This document shows positions 13,788 to 25,293 of a DNA stretch of 64,000 nt, piece after piece. The stretch spans positions 124,001 through 188,000 of the forward strand of contig CASFZN010000018.1 in the NCBI GenBank assembly GCA_949299195.1. Reading direction: 5' to 3'. The translations under genes and the position numbers were made by a program. Source of the stretch: an uncultured bacterium (GTDB taxonomy: Bacteria > Bacillota_I > Bacilli_A > RFN20 > CAG-826). The notes beneath the pieces were generated by a model. That model was not told the origin of the DNA, ran no database searches, and saw only the letters and a program-made list of their open reading frames with translations. How positions within the stretch are numbered: position 1 is the first letter of the stretch; each line of letters begins with the position of its first letter.

Positions 13788-14729
13788 ATGAAACCAATAG
13801 TATTCGCCCAAGAAATCCTTATTTCAATGGATTCACCATTCGGTATCTTTTTAACCTATGTTTATTTATTTATTTTAGGTTCTTTCTTAGGATGGTGCGC
13901 TGAGATTTTATTTAGAAGATTTGTATCAATGAAAAAATGGATAAATCCTGGATTTTTAAAAGGACCTTGTCTTCCTTTATATGGATTCGGATTGTGCGTT
14001 TTACATCTTATTAGCGATCTTTGCTTTAAATATTTAGTAAAAGAAGGCACTTACCCTGATTTTTATAGTCTTTCTTATGAAGATTTTGGTGCTACGCAAG
14101 GCAATTTAAACTTTTATGTTGTTAGTGTTATTGCAATATTAATTATTGGAATTTCCTTAACTTTAATCGAATTTATCGCAGGATTAATCTTTATTAAGGG
14201 ATTACATATTAAATTACGGGATTATTCTAAAATGAAAGGGAATATTATGGGGATTATTTGTCCTTTATTCTCATTTATTTGGTTAGTAGCAGGAGCAATA
14301 TATTGGTTTGCTTTAAGACCATTTGTATCTTATGCGATCGGATTTTTAAATAACCATGCATGGGTATTAACATTCTTTATTGGTGCCTATATTGCCTTAT
14401 TTATCGTAGATTTTATATCATCTTTAAAATTATCACTCCAACTTTCTAAAGACGCTAAAGTTAAGCAAGCAATTTTAGACTACGAAAAATTTAAACTTTC
14501 TTTAAAATCACATCCTGTTAAAGAAAAGAAAAAGAGCGCTATCCAAGTTGCTTTAGAAGATTCTTTAACACCAGTCACCAAAAAGATTAAAGAAGTTAAA
14601 GACGAAGTTGTTTCACATCTTTATATTAATAACGAAATTCCTACTAAAAACGAAAGTGAAACTCCTCGTACTAAAGAAGAAAAAGAAAAAGAAAATCAAA
14701 ATAATGAAAATAATTCCAATAATTCATAA
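13788..14729 (+). CDS. Multi-pass membrane protein of the putative ABC transporter permease family PF06541
   Basis: 313 residues. The first part has the family pattern FLGWCAEILFRRFVSMKKW then NPGFLKGPCLPLYGFG. About five or six membrane helices follow (around residues 18-36, 58-75, 105-140, 150-175, 185-210), then a charged cytoplasmic tail rich in Lys, Glu and Asn from about residue 225. The family's biochemical role is unknown despite its transporter label. It is followed by a sigma/anti-sigma pair on the same strand with a 39-bp gap, so it may be co-expressed with them. An internal Met14 is an alternative start. Confidence 0.7.
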   Translation: MKPIVFAQEILISMDSPFGIFLTYVYLFILGSFLGWCAEILFRRFVSMKKWINPGFLKGPCLPLYGFGLCVLHLISDLCFKYLVKEGTYPDFYSLSYEDFGATQGNLNFYVVSVIAILIIGISLTLIEFIAGLIFIKGLHIKLRDYSKMKGNIMGIICPLFSFIWLVAGAIYWFALRPFVSYAIGFLNNHAWVLTFFIGAYIALFIVDFISSLKLSLQLSKDAKVKQAILDYEKFKLSLKSHPVKEKKKSAIQVALEDSLTPVTKKIKEVKDEVVSHLYINNEIPTKNESETPRTKEEKEKENQNNENNSNNS

Positions 14730-14768
14730 TATTTATTCGTCTTTATTAATAGGTAGGGAAGAAAAGGT

Positions 14769-15290
14769 ATGAATGAGGATATTTTAAGTATCTATTTGAA
14801 AGAATTTAAAAATGGAAATATGACTCACTTCCATACTTTTTATGAACTTACTAAAAAAGGAGTATTTTATAATATCCTTTCTTTAACTAAGTCTTATGAA
14901 TTAAGTGAAGACTTACTTCAAGATACATATGTGAAGTTTTTATCTAGTATCAACGAGATAAAAACTTCTAAATCAGTATTAGGATATCTAATAATGATTT
15001 CTAAAAATACTACCTTAGATTACTTCAAAAAGAAGAAAGAAGAACAATTCGAAGAATATGAGGAGGTTGAATCCAAAGATACTTATTCTTTAGATAAATT
15101 GATCCTACTAGAAAAAATGAGGGATGTCTTAAAAGAAAAAGAATTTAATTTAATCCTTTATCACTTAATTGATGAATTAACATTCGAAGAGATATCTCTT
15201 ATTACTAAAGAACCGATAGGTACGTTACTATTTCGCTATAATACAGCAATAAAAAAGATAAGGAGGGAGCTAAAATATGAAGAAATATGA
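14769..15290 (+). CDS. ECF-type RNA polymerase sigma factor
   Basis: 173 residues. Region 2 includes YELSEDLLQDTYVKFL (the conserved D..EDLLQDTF helix) and the following -10-recognition stretch. Region 4 has the helix-turn-helix LTFEEISLITKEPIGTLLFR for the -35 element. It directs RNA polymerase to a small regulon in response to an envelope or extracellular signal. Its 3' end overlaps the next gene by 14 bp and contains that gene's Shine-Dalgarno (AAGGAGGGAG), so the two are translationally coupled, as for sigma/anti-sigma pairs. Confidence 0.88.
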   Translation: MNEDILSIYLKEFKNGNMTHFHTFYELTKKGVFYNILSLTKSYELSEDLLQDTYVKFLSSINEIKTSKSVLGYLIMISKNTTLDYFKKKKEEQFEEYEEVESKDTYSLDKLILLEKMRDVLKEKEFNLILYHLIDELTFEEISLITKEPIGTLLFRYNTAIKKIRRELKYEEI

Positions 15291-16455
15291 TGATAAATTC
15301 TTAAAAGAATCATTAAAAAAAGATGCTTCAGAATATAAAATCAAAACTACGTCTGAAGATATTTTAGCTGCTTATGAAAAAGAAAAGGTTAGTAAAACCC
15401 AAGAAAATAGTAGCCATAAAAATTATTTCTTCTCTTCTTGCTTCTTTAAAATTGCTGCACCTATTGCATGTAGTGTTATCCTTTTAAGTGCTATTTTACC
15501 TATATCAATTTACTCAATATATCAAGGTGGCCAAAATGAACCTCCAGTTCCACCAACTCCAAAAGAATATGGCGTTTCTTCTTTAAGCAGTGAATACCAA
15601 GAAGTAATTGGAAAACAACTTAATACTCTTATTTCCTTTGGTGTGAATCCTTTATCTCCATCAGTTTCTAGTGATAATAAAGATAAAATAGTAGGCAATA
15701 AAATTATGTCCACTTCTTCTATTTCTCCATTTGATAATGATGATGACAATGAAGAAGAAGATAACGAAACAAACGTTTCGTTTAGTTATGTAATCGATTT
15801 ATATGACCCATATGCTATCGGCGTTAGAAACTTAATTCTTAATCCTCAATATATAATTAAGGATGATGAACAAGATAACGATTTTTATAACTATTTCCTT
15901 ACATTTACAAGTGGCGAACAAGTTATGAATATCGAATACAGCATGTATTATCAAGAAGATATCGATGAATTTGTTCTTGAAGGAAATTTAATTACTAATG
16001 TTGCGTCTTACCCAATAACCATTAAAACTGAAACTGAACAAGATGAAAAAGAAATCAAAACCATCATCGAATTTAGTGAAAACAACGTGGTTTTAATTGA
16101 AGAGGAGTCAGAATTTGAAGGTCACGAAACCGAAAATTCCTTATCTTATGCAATTTTCGCTTCAAAAGAAGATTTAGAAAGGGACGAAGATTCGTTCATC
16201 AAAAAATTCTCATTTGAAAGCGAAACTGAATATTCTTATCAAGATATGGAAGCTGAAATTCAAACTCAAAACGAAACCGATGAACTTCAACTTGAAAATA
16301 TTCATATGGTAAATGAAAACGAATTTACCTTTACTTGTGAATATGAATCTGAAGATAAAGGTGAGTTTAATGGGTTAATTAGAAACATCTTTAATAGTGA
16401 TGGTTCAAGAACATACGTTAATGATGAAACAGGCGAAGAAATTACTAAAAAATAG
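15277..16455 (+). CDS. Probable transmembrane anti-sigma factor with acidic ectodomain
   Basis: 392 residues. A short cytoplasmic part (1-55, Lys/Glu-rich) is followed by one membrane helix (about 57-82) and a Pro-rich stalk. The extracellular domain (about 100-392) is strongly acidic and has no match I recognise. Coupling to the sigma gene and this one-helix topology point to an anti-sigma factor that holds the sigma factor at the membrane. No zinc-binding HxxxCxxC motif is seen in the cytoplasmic part. Residues about 232-291 align by eye with residues 174-239 of the lipoprotein encoded next (shared pieces LEG, EEESE, ETE, SY). Confidence 0.7.
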   Translation: MKKYDDKFLKESLKKDASEYKIKTTSEDILAAYEKEKVSKTQENSSHKNYFFSSCFFKIAAPIACSVILLSAILPISIYSIYQGGQNEPPVPPTPKEYGVSSLSSEYQEVIGKQLNTLISFGVNPLSPSVSSDNKDKIVGNKIMSTSSISPFDNDDDNEEEDNETNVSFSYVIDLYDPYAIGVRNLILNPQYIIKDDEQDNDFYNYFLTFTSGEQVMNIEYSMYYQEDIDEFVLEGNLITNVASYPITIKTETEQDEKEIKTIIEFSENNVVLIEEESEFEGHETENSLSYAIFASKEDLERDEDSFIKKFSFESETEYSYQDMEAEIQTQNETDELQLENIHMVNENEFTFTCEYESEDKGEFNGLIRNIFNSDGSRTYVNDETGEEITKK

Positions 16456-16479
16456 TAGGCATTAAATTTATTTATATTT

Positions 16480-16520
16480 AGAAGTTCTATCTCAAAAAGG
16501 ATGGAACTTCTTTTCTTTTT
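16480..16520 (+). terminator. Terminator after the sigma/anti-sigma operon
   Basis: Arms AGAAGTTC (16480-16487) and GAACTTCT (16504-16511) with a partly paired interior, followed by TTTTCTTTTTATT. It begins 24 bp after the anti-sigma stop, so the lipoprotein downstream needs its own promoter. Confidence 0.82.
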
Positions 16521-16698
16521 ATTATTATTTATAAATATTTTTTGAAAATTTGATACTAAAAAATACGATAAATATCGAATATTTTTAATCTTATATAAAT
16601 TAATTTAAAAAATTTATAAATTTTTCCAATAATTTTGTCTCCTTTATCGTTTTCATAGTATCAAAAGAAAAAATTAAAAATTTAGGAGGCAAAGAAAT

Positions 16699-17664
16699 AT
16701 GAAAAAGAAATTATTAGTTTTATTACCTTTATTAGGAATCGCAGCAACAATCGCATTCACAAGTTGCGGAAATTCTACTAATGGCGGAAATAACCAAGGT
16801 GGAATTATCAATAACCCAGATATTAAAGAAGAAAGTATTGAAGGAATCAATAATTCTACCTTAGGAAATATCCAAACAATTACCTCAATGAACTTATTAA
16901 GTTTTATGAATAACGGAGGTGGCGCAACATTAGCTTCTTTAGAAAATAACCTCATGGATAGAGATTATGTAAGTGAGAGCGAAAAAGAAGAAATTATCAA
17001 AATGTTACCTACACTAGATTTATTATTAAATGAAGACTTAGCATATACTTCTACTGTTATTGAAGAAACAAATGTAATTAATGAAGTAAGTTATTCTTAT
17101 AAAGAAGAAATTACTTATTTAAATAATAGCGCTACTTATTCTTCCATTAAACTCTATTTCAACGTAACTGGTGAATGGAATGAAAAAGATGACGATGATG
17201 ATGAAAATGAATTAATTCAAACTTTAGAAGGTGTAGCATTATTAAATGATGATTCAACCTATTACCCATTTAAAAGCGTAACTAAAGAAGAAAATGAATG
17301 GGATGAAAAAGAAAGTGAAAGATCATTCTTCATCGATTTAGGAAATAACTCATCAATTTTAGTTGAAGAAGAAAGTGAAAACGAAGATAAAGAAACTGAA
17401 ACTGAATTCTCTTATAAAATTAGAGAAAATGGCAGACTAGTCGATGAATATTCAATTTCTATTGAAACTGAAGGTACTAGAAAAGCAGTAAGTTATGAAC
17501 TTAACGAAATCGAATATGAAATGAAAAAAGTAATAAAAGATGGCGTTGAATTATATAAAGTTGAATATGAAAATGGAGAAGGAAGGGATGAAGTTGAAGC
17601 TACATTATACTTTATTAAAACTACAGTTGATGGAGTTACTACATTTAGCGAATATACATTCTAG
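16699..17664 (+). CDS. Surface lipoprotein sharing the anti-sigma ectodomain
   Basis: 321 residues. A signal peptide ends in a lipobox with Cys23 (IAFTSCGN). The mature protein is highly acidic with a Gly/Asn-rich stalk. Residues about 174-239 look homologous to residues 232-291 of the upstream anti-sigma factor, and a weaker similarity covers the flanking regions. It may be a decoy, partner or ligand sensor for the sigma pathway, or simply a member of its regulon. Strong Shine-Dalgarno (AGGAGG) 9 nt upstream of the ATG; it is transcribed separately because a terminator precedes it. Function otherwise unknown. Confidence 0.65.
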   Translation: MKKKLLVLLPLLGIAATIAFTSCGNSTNGGNNQGGIINNPDIKEESIEGINNSTLGNIQTITSMNLLSFMNNGGGATLASLENNLMDRDYVSESEKEEIIKMLPTLDLLLNEDLAYTSTVIEETNVINEVSYSYKEEITYLNNSATYSSIKLYFNVTGEWNEKDDDDDENELIQTLEGVALLNDDSTYYPFKSVTKEENEWDEKESERSFFIDLGNNSSILVEEESENEDKETETEFSYKIRENGRLVDEYSISIETEGTRKAVSYELNEIEYEMKKVIKDGVELYKVEYENGEGRDEVEATLYFIKTTVDGVTTFSEYTF

Positions 17665-17690: not shown

Positions 17691-17733
17691 TAAAATAGGT
17701 TGGAGACTAATCCAATCTATTTTAATTTTTTTT
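17691..17733 (+). terminator. Terminator after the lipoprotein gene
   Basis: Stem formed by TAAAATAGGTTGGA (17691-17704) and the complementary TCCAATCTATTTTA (17711-17724) with a 6-nt loop, followed by a long T run. Confidence 0.88.
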
Positions 17734-19311: not shown

Positions 19312-22300
19312 TTATTGTTTAATCAGTTCAATATAGTTGTTCTCTTTTAAAAGAACTATCTTTTCTTTAGCCAAATATTCAAAAACATAATCTAGTGCTA
19401 GATCAATTTTTCTTGTCTTGCTTTTAAAACCAAGCCTTTTAACTATGATTCTTTTTAAATTTTCTTTTTCCATAGAGACTTCTTTTTCTAATATTTCCTT
19501 GATTAAAACCGCTATTTCTTCTTTAGAAATATCTAAAATATCGCGGTTATTTGCCTTTCTATAGAAATTAATTTCTTTTGAATCTAAAATTCCGTCTTTA
19601 TAAAAGAATTTAATGTTTTCATTATAAGAATAATCATAATAATTATTTAATTTTGAGATAAAATATCGAATTATTGAAGTATTTTCCTTATTTTTTCTTT
19701 CAATTTGGAATAACTCTGAGATTCTTTTTATTAATAATTTTTCTGAAATTGGATATTCAACATCGATTAAATTTTTAACAAGTTTATATATAGATTGGCG
19801 ATTATGTGGATTAATGAGCATTTTTTCGTTATATAGATTTTTAAGAGTAAAGAAGGAATACGCCTTTAAATGAGAGGTGGTCTTTTTAATGGTTTTTTTA
19901 AATTCAATAGTAGAAAAATCTTCCCTATTATCATAGCCTTCCTTATTATCTACTAGATCTTTACTAGCTAACTCCTTAATTTTTTCATCTATCTCTTTAA
20001 TAGTATTAATAGGATCATTATAGTAACTTAAACTCCATACAAAGAGGATATTCCAGCCTAATTTCTTTAATTCTTCTATTTGAATAATGTTTCGATCTTT
20101 TACGGTTGGGGTAAGTGAATAATTATAGGAATCTAAAATAATACCTAATAAGTACTTGTTGTTATCATTAGGATTACTTACTGCAATATCGATTTTAAAT
20201 CTCGAAACCCCTAAATGTAAGGTAACTTCATGACCTAAAGCTTTAAGTTCTTTAGCAATATATTCTTCAATTCCATCTTTTATTAAATAGGAAGAATTTA
20301 AAGTGGTTAAAGTCTTCATGCCGTGTTCACTATATTCTAAAAAACTCTTTAAATATCTAACACCTTCGCTATTAGTTCTATTTAAATTAATATCGCGATA
20401 AGTTATTGAAGAATATACATACATTTCGTCTCTACTTCTTGTAATAGCAACATTTAGTCTACGATATCCTCCTAAAATATTAATAGGACCAAAGTTATGG
20501 ATTAATCGGCCATTTTTATTACGTCCATAACAAATTGATAGATAAATTACATCTCTTTCATCTCCTTGGACATTTTCAAGATTTTTAATAAATAATGGTT
20601 CTTTTAAAGAATTCACAAGATTATATAACTCCTCATCTTTATCAACCTTTTCTTCAAGTAATCTTTCAATCAATTCCATTTGACGGATTGAAAAAGTGAT
20701 GATTCCAAAACTTAAGTTTTTAGGATTATTTTTAATTCTTTCTAAAATATCGTTAACTAAAACCCTGGCTTCTTCTTTATTAGTGGCACTTTTACCAGCA
20801 TCATAAATTCCATTTTCAACATATTTAAAACTTACTTTAGATTTAATTTTATTAATCGAAGGGAATGTAAATAAAGAATTGCCATAGAATTTAGAGTTAG
20901 AAAAAGCGATTAAAGATTCATCTTTACTTCGATAGTGATAAGAGAGTTTATTTATTGGGAAAGAGGCTGCAAGAGCATCATCTAAAATAGACTCTAAATC
21001 TTGAATCTCGATATTTTCTTTTTCTTCATTTATAGATTTATCAAAGAAAGATGTTGGAGGAAGTTGCTTATCATCTCCTGAAATAACTACACTTTTTCCT
21101 CTTAATATTGCGCCTAGTGCATCACTTGTAGGAAGTTGACTTGCTTCATCAAAAATAACTACATCAAAATTATATAGATCTGAATCTAGATATTTAGCAC
21201 ATGAAAGGGGAGAAGTTAAAATACAAGGCGTTAATTTTTGAATTGTTAAAGGGATAAGAGAAAGAATATTTCTTAAACTCATTCCTCTTCCTCCGGATTT
21301 TATCGCCTTTTTTAAGATTCCAATCTCACTAGTTTTAGATAAAGAAGAATATACACTTGGAATGTTTTTAGATAATTTAGAAACTACTTCATTTATTACT
21401 TCTTTTTTATAGCGATTATCAAGGAGGAGATAATTATCTTTAATCATTGAATAATCTTTTCCTAGGAATTCTTCTAAATCATATTCTTTTATTAAAGAAT
21501 CGATTATCTTTTTGGCTAAAGATTTATGGAATATATCCTTAATGTATTTAAAAGATAATCCTTCATCCTTATATTTATTAATAATGTCGCTTAAATTTAA
21601 GCTTATAAATCTATCGAAGATATTTAAAAGAGAGGTATATTCATAAACTAGATTTATATTTTTATAGATATCTTTAAGGATTTCATTTAACTCTTCAAAG
21701 AAATTATTATTACTATTAGTAGTAGTACTGTTTTTTGATGAATATCGTCTTATTTCTTTTAAATTAAATTTATAATCATTGATTAATATGACTAAATTAG
21801 ATTTAACTAAATCATATTTTTCCATATATTCATCAATCATATTTTTAGAAGCTTCTTCTAAAAATAGTTCTTCAATATATTTAGTAAGTTTAAATGGTTT
21901 ATTATTCCCATATGAAATCTTTAAGATTTTTTCTCCTAAAGTAATGGTGTTATCGATATTATCTATAATATATGGGTAGTTATTTTCATTATCTAAAGAC
22001 TTACTATAATCGCTTTTAAGAGTTGAAGAAACAATAATCTTATTTTTAGTAACTAATTTTAAATTCTTACTAAATTTATTAAATCTTTCTAAATAATCTA
22101 ATAAATTTTTAGTGTTTATTGTTTTAGATTTATAGGCATATTTTTTAACTTTAGAAAGAATATTATTAAGTTTAAAGAATTTAACTAAAAAGTTAGCATT
22201 ACTATACTTTTTATATTCATTAATTAAACTTTCAAAATCTTCATTCATTATATTTTTATTAAAAATAGTGAATAAAATGTTTTCTTCGACGTTGGTGTCT

Positions 22301-25293
22301 CTTTCTAAAACTACTAGTTCTTTCATCTTTTTAGGAACTTTTAAATAGTCTTCAGTTTTTAATAATTCAAAATAGACTTTTCGTTTTTTTAAATATTCAA
22401 AGATTGATGATAATTCATCTAGTGTTTTTTCATCAAAAGATTCGATACTTATCGATTTATTTAATTTTCTAGATAAAAAGTTAAATGTATTTAATGAGTC
22501 ATTTAGATTAAATAATAAGTCTTTTAACTTTTCTTTATCTTCATTTGAATAACTTCTTAAAGAATAGACTCTAAAAGGATTCTCTTTATATGGTTTGAAA
22601 GATAAAGAATAGTTTTCTCCTCGATCAAAAAGAGAATTTATTTCTTCTAACTTACTATTATTTAAAGTCTTTAAGAAAGTGTCGTTAATATCAACATTTT
22701 CTTCAATATCTTTATATTTTTCATATTCTAAAATGGCATCATATAAAGAAATTCCATATCTTTTGGTTGAATGAATTTTAATAACGATATCTTTTAAGAT
22801 ATTTTTTAAGTTTTCATTTTCTTCAACGATTTTTTCATAGTCTTTATTGCGTTCGATTTCGCCCAAATCCAACACTCTTTCAAAGGTAGATAAAACCGCA
22901 CGTTTATCTTGTTTTTGAGAATGTAGCTCTAAACAAAATGGATCGATTCTTATTTCCTTTAAACGGGAATAAACTACATCTAAAGCAGCTTTTTTCTCGG
23001 AACAAAAGAGAATTTTTTTGCCATTAAATAAAGAGTTAACAATGATATTAGCGATAGTTTGACTTTTCCCAGTTCCTGGAGGACCAATCATTACAAAAGA
23101 TTCATTTAATGATGCATCAATTATGGCTTTAAGCTGGGTAGAATCCGCACTTAAAGGAATTGCTAAATCTTTTAATTTTATTTCTTCATCTATTTTATAA
23201 ACATCAATGGTTTCAGGACTTTTCCATTCTTTCTTATTATTAATAAATGATTTAATAACTCTATTTTTAAGGATTTTTTCTTTATTTTGTTCAATGTCAT
23301 TCCACATTATATATTTAGAAAAAGAGAATCTACCTATGAATGCATTTTTAAGAAGTTCTATTTCTTTATAGTTAGTTATTTCTTTTTTAACTTTAAAAAT
23401 AATCTCGTTAATATCGATTAAATCACTATCTTCTTTCTTTTTAGGAAGATTAGAGTTAGTTAAATCAATATTAATATTAAATTCTTCTTTTAAGAAGTTT
23501 ATAAAGGTGGTATTGATGAAGGGTTCTTCATCAATACCTTTAATAAAGTATTTTTTATCAAATCTTTTAATAATATTAATAGGATATAAAAGTAAAGGTG
23601 CATAATAACTTACTTTACTTCTTTTATTTTCTTTCCATTTTATAATACCAAGCGCGATAAATAGCGTATTAGTGCCACTTTCTTCCATATCGTTTCTAGC
23701 TTTATGATATAAAGAAGGAACGGATAAAGAATATTCTTTTTCATTTAATAATAAGATTAGTTTATTGTTTACTAGATTTTCACCTACTAATTCCTTAATT
23801 TCTTTATTATTTTGATCATATTCATAGATATTTCTTTTACTTGAAGAAGGTATTTTAGAATCACTATTAGGAATAAGTTCAATGGTATTTTCAATATTTG
23901 ATAAAGAATAGATTAATTCATTTAAAGAAGGTACTAATATTTCAATATTATTAGTTCCTATTTTCATATTAATTAATTTATTGGATTTAGAAAGATCTAA
24001 TAATTTTCTTTCCCATAGATCAAATTTACCTTTATTTTTATTAACTTCTTCGATTCTTCTTTTAGGAATTATTTCGATGTTTTCTAACTTTTCTACATTT
24101 TTATCTAGTTCAAAGATTGATGAATTAAAGGTAGTTAATTCATTAGTATCTAAAGGATAAATTCCTTCAATTCTTAAAGCTTTGATATCTAAAAGGAGGA
24201 AGGATGAAGCTAAATCTTCACTTACTTCTTCATTATTTTTAATACCACCATTTTTATCATTTTTAGTAGTAATATTATTTTTTAAATAAATTAAAGACTT
24301 CTCTTCTTTTAATAATTTATAGAGCTCTTTTTTAAAATATTCTTTCGCGTTTTTAAGATTATCAATAAAAGATGCACCGTTTAAAAATCTTTTTATCGAT
24401 AAAACTTCAATTTTGTTATTCATTAAAAGTTCAAAGAATAATGAATAATTTTCATAAACTGCAGAAATAAAATTATCGTTTAATTTCCAATATCCAAGAT
24501 AAATTTCATCATTAAAAAAGATGATCATTGGATTGAGTTTAATATATTCTAAGGTTGATGCAAAAAAGAGCGATAATTCTAAGGAATTAGCCATTTTTAA
24601 TAGATAAATATCACTTCCAAGTCTAATATTTATTCCTCCATTTAATCTATCTAAAGTAAATGAGGTTTCCCTTATTTTTAAATATGATAAATAGTTATAA
24701 ACTGAACGGACTTCATCATCAATTTCTTTATCTTCTTCATTTAAATATCCTAAATAATCTTCTTTATTTTTTAAGGCGACTATTTCTTTTTTAGCATTAA
24801 ATACATTATTTTTGGTATAAATTGAGTTTGGAGTAACGTATTTTCCTAGCATTTCTAAAGAATGATAAGAAATATTAAAGTATTTATAATTTACCAAAGT
24901 TATTTCTTCGTTTTGATAATAAATTATTGAATTATATTCATTAATTAACTCGATACTTATCGTGATTTTTGTATTATTTTTAAGAGATAAAAATTTAATA
25001 GAATTATAAATAATATCTATATCGTTAAGCTCTAAAATTTCTTTCTTTTTAATTAAAGGAATATATATGTCTTCTATTTTGAAATAATCATCACTTTTTT
25101 TATCAATATAGATCTTTAATTTTAAGTTTATTAAATCTTCTTTTTTAGAGTTATTTCTAATTTTTATATTAGAAATAACATTCTTATTATTAGATAAAGA
25201 AGTATATGAAAAATAATCACTTTTTTCGATAAAAAGAGTGACGCTTTCTTCTTCTTTTATGTTCTTTATATTTATCGAATCATTATTTTTCAT
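19312..25293 (-). CDS. Giant SF1 helicase with DUF4011, Vsr-like and DUF3320 domains
   Basis: 1993 residues, one of the COG1112-type superfamily 1 helicases. In order: an N-terminal Ig-like region with a VTPN motif (about 145-160); DUF4011 (from about 423, FDLWERKLLDLSKSNKLINM); the helicase core with Walker A GPPGTGKSQTIAN (Lys743), Walker B FDEASQLP (Asp1382-Glu1383) and a C-terminal GGYRRLNVAITRSRDEM motif; a Vsr/PD-(D/E)xK-like domain (about 1670-1780); and a DUF3320-like tail. The nuclease motif looks damaged: KIDIAV keeps its Asp, but the expected IExDG..H reads IILDS..Y. This architecture is frequent in defence-gene neighbourhoods; here it would unwind nucleic acid in an unknown anti-mobile-element or repair role. 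Confidence 0.82.
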   Translation of the reverse strand: MKNNDSINIKNIKEEESVTLFIEKSDYFSYTSLSNNKNVISNIKIRNNSKKEDLINLKLKIYIDKKSDDYFKIEDIYIPLIKKKEILELNDIDIIYNSIKFLSLKNNTKITISIELINEYNSIIYYQNEEITLVNYKYFNISYHSLEMLGKYVTPNSIYTKNNVFNAKKEIVALKNKEDYLGYLNEEDKEIDDEVRSVYNYLSYLKIRETSFTLDRLNGGINIRLGSDIYLLKMANSLELSLFFASTLEYIKLNPMIIFFNDEIYLGYWKLNDNFISAVYENYSLFFELLMNNKIEVLSIKRFLNGASFIDNLKNAKEYFKKELYKLLKEEKSLIYLKNNITTKNDKNGGIKNNEEVSEDLASSFLLLDIKALRIEGIYPLDTNELTTFNSSIFELDKNVEKLENIEIIPKRRIEEVNKNKGKFDLWERKLLDLSKSNKLINMKIGTNNIEILVPSLNELIYSLSNIENTIELIPNSDSKIPSSSKRNIYEYDQNNKEIKELVGENLVNNKLILLLNEKEYSLSVPSLYHKARNDMEESGTNTLFIALGIIKWKENKRSKVSYYAPLLLYPINIIKRFDKKYFIKGIDEEPFINTTFINFLKEEFNINIDLTNSNLPKKKEDSDLIDINEIIFKVKKEITNYKEIELLKNAFIGRFSFSKYIMWNDIEQNKEKILKNRVIKSFINNKKEWKSPETIDVYKIDEEIKLKDLAIPLSADSTQLKAIIDASLNESFVMIGPPGTGKSQTIANIIVNSLFNGKKILFCSEKKAALDVVYSRLKEIRIDPFCLELHSQKQDKRAVLSTFERVLDLGEIERNKDYEKIVEENENLKNILKDIVIKIHSTKRYGISLYDAILEYEKYKDIEENVDINDTFLKTLNNSKLEEINSLFDRGENYSLSFKPYKENPFRVYSLRSYSNEDKEKLKDLLFNLNDSLNTFNFLSRKLNKSISIESFDEKTLDELSSIFEYLKKRKVYFELLKTEDYLKVPKKMKELVVLERDTNVEENILFTIFNKNIMNEDFESLINEYKKYSNANFLVKFFKLNNILSKVKKYAYKSKTINTKNLLDYLERFNKFSKNLKLVTKNKIIVSSTLKSDYSKSLDNENNYPYIIDNIDNTITLGEKILKISYGNNKPFKLTKYIEELFLEEASKNMIDEYMEKYDLVKSNLVILINDYKFNLKEIRRYSSKNSTTTNSNNNFFEELNEILKDIYKNINLVYEYTSLLNIFDRFISLNLSDIINKYKDEGLSFKYIKDIFHKSLAKKIIDSLIKEYDLEEFLGKDYSMIKDNYLLLDNRYKKEVINEVVSKLSKNIPSVYSSLSKTSEIGILKKAIKSGGRGMSLRNILSLIPLTIQKLTPCILTSPLSCAKYLDSDLYNFDVVIFDEASQLPTSDALGAILRGKSVVISGDDKQLPPTSFFDKSINEEKENIEIQDLESILDDALAASFPINKLSYHYRSKDESLIAFSNSKFYGNSLFTFPSINKIKSKVSFKYVENGIYDAGKSATNKEEARVLVNDILERIKNNPKNLSFGIITFSIRQMELIERLLEEKVDKDEELYNLVNSLKEPLFIKNLENVQGDERDVIYLSICYGRNKNGRLIHNFGPINILGGYRRLNVAITRSRDEMYVYSSITYRDINLNRTNSEGVRYLKSFLEYSEHGMKTLTTLNSSYLIKDGIEEYIAKELKALGHEVTLHLGVSRFKIDIAVSNPNDNNKYLLGIILDSYNYSLTPTVKDRNIIQIEELKKLGWNILFVWSLSYYNDPINTIKEIDEKIKELASKDLVDNKEGYDNREDFSTIEFKKTIKKTTSHLKAYSFFTLKNLYNEKMLINPHNRQSIYKLVKNLIDVEYPISEKLLIKRISELFQIERKNKENTSIIRYFISKLNNYYDYSYNENIKFFYKDGILDSKEINFYRKANNRDILDISKEEIAVLIKEILEKEVSMEKENLKRIIVKRLGFKSKTRKIDLALDYVFEYLAKEKIVLLKENNYIELIKQ

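Follow-up and report, generated by a model that had tools for sequence, protein, structure and literature searches.

An ECF sigma factor module of uncultured Bacilli in which the adjoining lipoprotein is homologous to the ectodomain of a putative anti-sigma factor

The 64,000-nucleotide stretch of DNA that was analysed (referred to here as the window) carries three adjoining genes on the forward strand, encoding (i) an ECF sigma factor of 173 amino acids (positions 14769–15290), (ii) a putative membrane anti-sigma factor of 392 aa (15277–16455) and (iii) a lipoprotein of 321 aa (16699–17664). These three ORFs, including the 14-bp overlap between the sigma and anti-sigma genes, are present as given in a preliminary description of this DNA. 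The sigma factor consists of Sigma-70 regions 2 and 4 only, as membership of the ECF group requires, and its best family matches in both Pfam and NCBIfam are ECF models (Pfam Sigma70_r2, 4e-8; NCBIfam sigma70-ECF TIGR02937, 48.8 bits against a cut-off of 42.9, residues 22–168). The product of the second gene comprises a short cytosolic N-terminus with a conserved YxIKTTS sequence, one membrane-spanning (TM) segment near residues 51–80, and an ectodomain. No known anti-sigma domain was matched in this protein in Pfam or NCBIfam, and its role as inhibitor of the sigma factor is inferred, in the absence of binding data, from its position and topology, i.e. from a TM-protein gene adjoining the sigma gene and a cytosolic N-terminus, an arrangement that is kept in relatives. 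The third protein carries the lipobox FTSC with Cys23. Neither this lipoprotein nor the anti-sigma factor belongs to a Pfam or NCBIfam family, and sequence searches of the PDB likewise gave no family for either.

The gap between the anti-sigma and lipoprotein genes contains a sequence resembling an intrinsic terminator on the forward strand (16480–16524), composed of a hairpin with a 13-bp stem (16480–16511) and a T tract, in agreement with the terminator previously proposed ahead of the lipoprotein gene, while a second terminator-like hairpin with a 14-bp stem is located 3' of the lipoprotein gene (17691–17733, forward strand). The lipoprotein promoter region is additionally flanked by a 15-bp inverted repeat (16549–16563 and 16651–16665, 87% complementary); this repeat was rejected as a part of the mechanism since it is not general, most relatives having only approximately 70 bp between the two genes.

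When compared as two single sequences by BLASTP, the anti-sigma factor and the lipoprotein displayed only a modest similarity (E = 0.015), and both proteins are extremely rich in glutamate, observations that would fit a chance resemblance between acidic sequences of low complexity from an AT-rich genome. Because of this weak result, the similarity was tested with relatives and decoys. Smith-Waterman alignment of the two ectodomains yielded a score of 136, compared to 64–71 (sd 10–11) for shuffled sequences, none of which (0/4000) reached 136. Comparison of 22 ectodomains with 22 lipoproteins from members of the genus only, using hhalign, gave a probability of 97.6 and E = 4e-12, and the inclusion of all relatives (27 versus 27) raised this to 99.4 and 9e-22 over 212 columns; the real comparison gave a value of 89, as opposed to 29 for a reversed alignment and at most 21 for local column shuffles. 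Furthermore, the lipoprotein profile matches the anti-sigma factors of other groups (2.8e-31 in locus L075 and 7e-18 in locus L080), and an order-wide search with this profile matched two adjacent genes in many genomes. In genome G043, the anti-sigma ectodomain (gene at L075:5723–6952) is 51% identical to the lipoprotein of the same cassette (L075:7031–8131; 147 of 287 aligned residues). Mere acidic composition was rejected as the source of the similarity on account of the shuffles and decoys, and a chance resemblance, opposed also by the profile comparison, the G043 pair and the matching predicted folds (see below), is barely conceivable. With relatives included, sequence comparison places it beyond doubt that the anti-sigma ectodomain is homologous to the lipoprotein over its whole length. 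The likeness noted in the preliminary description, between residues 232–291 of the anti-sigma factor and residues 174–239 of the lipoprotein, is therefore real, being merely the best stretch of a full-length homology, and the proviso attached to it, that profile similarity should extend beyond acidic composition, is satisfied. A lipoprotein of 513 aa was also encountered (L210:601–2142, contig G027:C52), in which the profile matches two halves split by a long insertion.

Side-by-side comparison of upstream regions identified a bipartite motif, CCAATAA-N15-CGTnTTnA, before the sigma and lipoprotein genes. Both promoters of the window match it exactly on the forward strand: that of the sigma gene (14716–14745), which shares sequence with the 3' end of the preceding gene, has CCAATAA at 14716–14722, a 15-bp spacer and CGTCTTTA as the -10 element, while that of the lipoprotein gene (16626–16655) has CCAATAA, a 15-bp spacer and CGTTTTCA as the -10 element. 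Across the collected cassettes and partial cassettes, 42 of 56 sigma genes and 46 of 57 lipoprotein genes are preceded by the motif, as opposed to none of 55 anti-sigma genes; some cassettes have no recognisable promoter. The motif remains with the lipoprotein gene where a histidine-phosphatase gene has been inserted in between (L063), where the lipoprotein gene is unlinked (L072) and where the gene order is inverted. The -10 element varies by lineage and matches within a cassette, being identical to that of its own partner at 7.3 of 8 positions, compared to 5.9 when partners were swapped (sd 0.14, maximum 6.5 in 5000 shuffles). This shuffle controls only partly for relatedness, and the spacer, used as a control, agreed far more weakly within cassettes than the -10 element did. 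Genome G009 possesses two cassettes, each with its own version of the -10 element (CGTATTnA and TGTACTAG); the second, diverged cassette (L079, contig G009:C5) carries TGTACTAG at both promoters and represents a useful natural test of orthogonality. The CCAATAA-N15-CGT promoter before the sigma genes is of the kind expected of a predicted autoregulated ECF operon. The lipoprotein gene was thus rightly credited with a promoter of its own in the preliminary description, the type of which appears to be that of the sigma factor itself, and the promoter common to both genes, with its covarying -10 element, supports the option raised there that the lipoprotein is the output of the pathway feeding back.

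The strict pattern was found 11 times in the 1.17-Mb assembly to which the window belongs, and only two of these matches, both in the cassette, are placed as promoters. Allowing up to two mismatches gave 64 further sites, of which 17 (including all one-mismatch sites) were examined, none being promoter-placed; a reversed control pattern gave 36 sites, and the remaining two-mismatch sites fell outside this one-by-one examination. As no other promoter-placed copy was found, the lipoprotein appears to be the principal, if not the sole, output in this genome. It is not the sole output everywhere, since a gene for a Colicin V production-like (CvpA) membrane protein is preceded by a CCAATAA-N15-CGTTTTTA promoter in the relatives G003, G021 and G013 (L123, L124 and L125, respectively); the orthologue in the genome studied here has no such promoter.

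Within the genus, both proteins occur in 21 genomes and neither occurs in five, and the three genes stay together while the neighbours upstream and downstream change. The lipoprotein profile matched 98 of 279 genomes (28 of 56 genera) across the order and 75 of 395 genomes (35 of 193 genera) across the class. In other orders, 16 of 20 sampled loci contained all three genes, arranged as sigma-anti-sigma-lipoprotein in seven and as lipoprotein-sigma-anti-sigma in nine; the lipoprotein of one locus (L265) fell below the profile threshold, and some of the anti-sigma factors were recognised by position and topology only. Conserved linkage in relatives, on which the preliminary description had staked its proposal, is evident from the occurrence of the module in many genera of the order. 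In contrast, six genomes of genus g28 encode a lipoprotein that stands alone: no anti-sigma factor was detected in its vicinity, and no convincing one elsewhere in the genome. This suggests that the stand-alone lipoprotein has a function of its own; alternatively, such orphans may reflect nothing more than anti-sigma factors too divergent to be detected.

Several neighbouring genes were recorded in the course of this survey. In the window, the reverse strand at 19312–25293 encodes a protein of 1993 aa with DUF4011, AAA_11/AAA_12 helicase and REase_MTES_1575 domains, which may be a defence-type nuclease-helicase, and several relatives likewise have a large gene downstream of the cassette. A Cas9 gene (1403 aa) directly follows the cassette in G053 (L078:6080–10291), and the cassette of G015 is followed immediately by a second ECF sigma gene, in convergent orientation, with a TM-protein partner that has no Pfam match (L052:7479–8745).

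A tree of the two protein groups indicated that, in most of the genus, anti-sigma factors and lipoproteins form separate, old paralogues; it was built with a short search and includes several long branches, and its deep branching is consequently unsure. In G043, however, the anti-sigma ectodomain nests within the lipoprotein clade, beside the lipoprotein of its own cassette, as though the domain had recently been copied or exchanged within this cassette. Together with the 51% identity of the pair, this nesting indicates that a single domain is able to fill either position. Such a derivation of an anti-sigma ectodomain from the lipoprotein clade would be expected if the lipoprotein were the working protein (e.g. 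one that binds at the cell surface or forms part of the envelope) and its domain had been borrowed by the anti-sigma factor only to measure the substrate, with no negative feedback by way of the signal. Support for this view also comes from the lipoproteins that stand alone and from the precedent of RsgI (PMC6056542), while the two old paralogue groups found in most of the genus, and the absence from the genome studied here of companion enzymes or transporters under the same promoter, speak against such borrowing, which we consider improbable.

The paralogues are strongly diverged in most cassettes, and an ectodomain often scores higher with the lipoprotein of another species than with its own. 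This bears on the main rival to ligand capture, an RseB-like co-inhibitor role in which the lipoprotein would dock onto the anti-sigma ectodomain by way of edge strands or helices of the common fold, protect it from site-1 proteolysis and so return the induced pathway to its resting state. Paralogous domains often pair, the genes are linked and lost together in the genus, and RseB provides the precedent of an extracytoplasmic protein, encoded in a sigma operon, that guards an anti-sigma factor (PMC8103513). The divergence of the partners, which gives no sign of tight pairwise co-adaptation, and the lipoproteins that stand alone in g28 argue mildly against a complex of this kind, and we regard it as unlikely without discounting it.

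Each protein was separately modelled with AlphaFold2 as a helix, a variable linker and a second helix, followed by 14 antiparallel strands. The models were built from shallow alignments and are of moderate confidence (pLDDT 66 for the anti-sigma factor and 72 for the lipoprotein, with the core of the lipoprotein at 75–94 and that of the ectodomain mostly so). The predicted strands correspond one to one, b5–b8 of the lipoprotein (residues 188–243) being in register with b5–b8 of the anti-sigma factor (residues 244–294). Foldseek searches with these moderate-confidence models gave no PDB match at E < 0.001 for either, and the modelled two-helix/14-strand fold may be new. In both proteins, conserved glutamates occur in i, i+2 pairs close to where the predicted hairpins b5/b6 and b7/b8 turn, and the net charge of the two domains is -13 and -12 per 100 aa, the figure for the other ORFs of these loci being -3.2 (sd 5.4). 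While acidity alone is insufficient to demonstrate a cationic ligand, the glutamate pairs in combination with this charge favour one; a metal ion, a peptide or a basic protein is the ligand that we favour, in the absence of any ligand or binding data.

We propose that sensor and output possess a common ligand-binding domain, and that the induced lipoprotein captures the signal and thereby exerts negative feedback, a proposal to which we attach roughly even confidence. At rest, the anti-sigma factor would keep the sigma factor at the membrane. By inference from other ECF systems, an extracellular and probably cationic ligand would bind the acidic ectodomain and cause the sigma factor to be freed, which, to judge from the matching CCAATAA-N15-CGT promoters and without experiment, would transcribe both the operon that encodes it and the lipoprotein gene. 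The lipoprotein would present the domain once more, anchored in the membrane and lacking the part that binds sigma, and is inferred to capture the same ligand, so that the envelope would be protected and the signal withdrawn from the anti-sigma factor. The anatomy of this module, as read from sequence, is well supported, comprising the common domain, the lipid-anchoring signal, the separate matching promoters and co-inheritance; sigma inhibition by the TM protein, ligand binding by the common domain and capture by the lipoprotein are inferred, and whether the lipoprotein captures ligand or binds the anti-sigma factor in the manner of RseB is not settled by sequence. If ligand capture is correct, the module is a sense-and-sequester circuit, in which measurement of a ligand is answered by further production of the domain that binds it. 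Induction of a sensor copy predicts a simple feedback loop, which could be reconstructed in a laboratory strain as a means of finding the ligand, the lipoprotein being a ready-made probe for the ligand of the anti-sigma factor. Two families without a Pfam or NCBIfam match are also provided with a functional hypothesis, a fold model and a promoter motif, in a large, uncultured, gut-type bacterial group without genetics. We suggest only tentatively, at somewhat less than even confidence, that the module represents an undescribed class of ECF pathway, present in at least several orders of the class (recorded as uncultured Bacilli), with a lipid-anchored duplicate of the sensor as its main output and a fold without a solved relative.

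Of the systems already described, SigV-RsiV (Bacillus subtilis and relatives) similarly combines an ECF sigma factor, an anti-sigma factor that spans the membrane once and binds its ligand through a large ectodomain, and an autoregulated operon; RsiV is a lysozyme receptor with DUF4163/DUF3298, and the O-acetyltransferase OatA is the resistance gene downstream (PMC5014341, PMC8287880). Here, in contrast, the predicted output is a copy of the sensor and the promoter is CCAATAA-N15-CGT; DUF4163/DUF3298 was not matched in the anti-sigma ectodomain by Pfam at E values up to 1, and no resemblance to the RsiV fold emerged for either moderate-confidence model among PDB matches at E < 0.001.

Sensor modules of RsgI, such as carbohydrate-binding modules, recur in proteins of the SigI regulon, a trait shared with the module described here. 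The SigI-RsgI pairs of Clostridium thermocellum are autoregulated (PMC6056542). Unlike the present system, SigI is not an ECF sigma factor and has many enzyme targets, as opposed to one adjoining lipoprotein that consists of the sensor domain only and approximately two promoters; RsgI_N was not matched in Pfam or NCBIfam.

RseB, which is not a lipoprotein, has to our knowledge no homology to the periplasmic part of RseA, whereas the third protein is here a paralogue of the sensor, and one that matches no MucB/RseB family in Pfam or NCBIfam. The RpoE-RseA-RseB system of Escherichia coli is similar in that a third extracytoplasmic protein, the negative regulator RseB, is encoded with the pair (PMC8103513). 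In Streptomyces coelicolor, a lipoprotein gene, cseA, also adjoins an ECF sigma gene, sigE, and its loss raises expression of the sigma factor (PMC6767563); that system employs two-component signalling without an anti-sigma factor, and CseA has not been reported as a copy of a sensor domain. An induced lipoprotein paralogous to the anti-sigma sensor is absent from all four systems as described, and no such module was found in the literature searched, which did not include subscription papers or preprints, so that its novelty is provisional. While the effectors of most ECF systems are unrelated to the sensor, the gene predicted to be induced here duplicates the sensor domain, and capture of the signal and shutdown of the switch by an induced sensor copy looks like a previously undescribed way of operating such a pathway.
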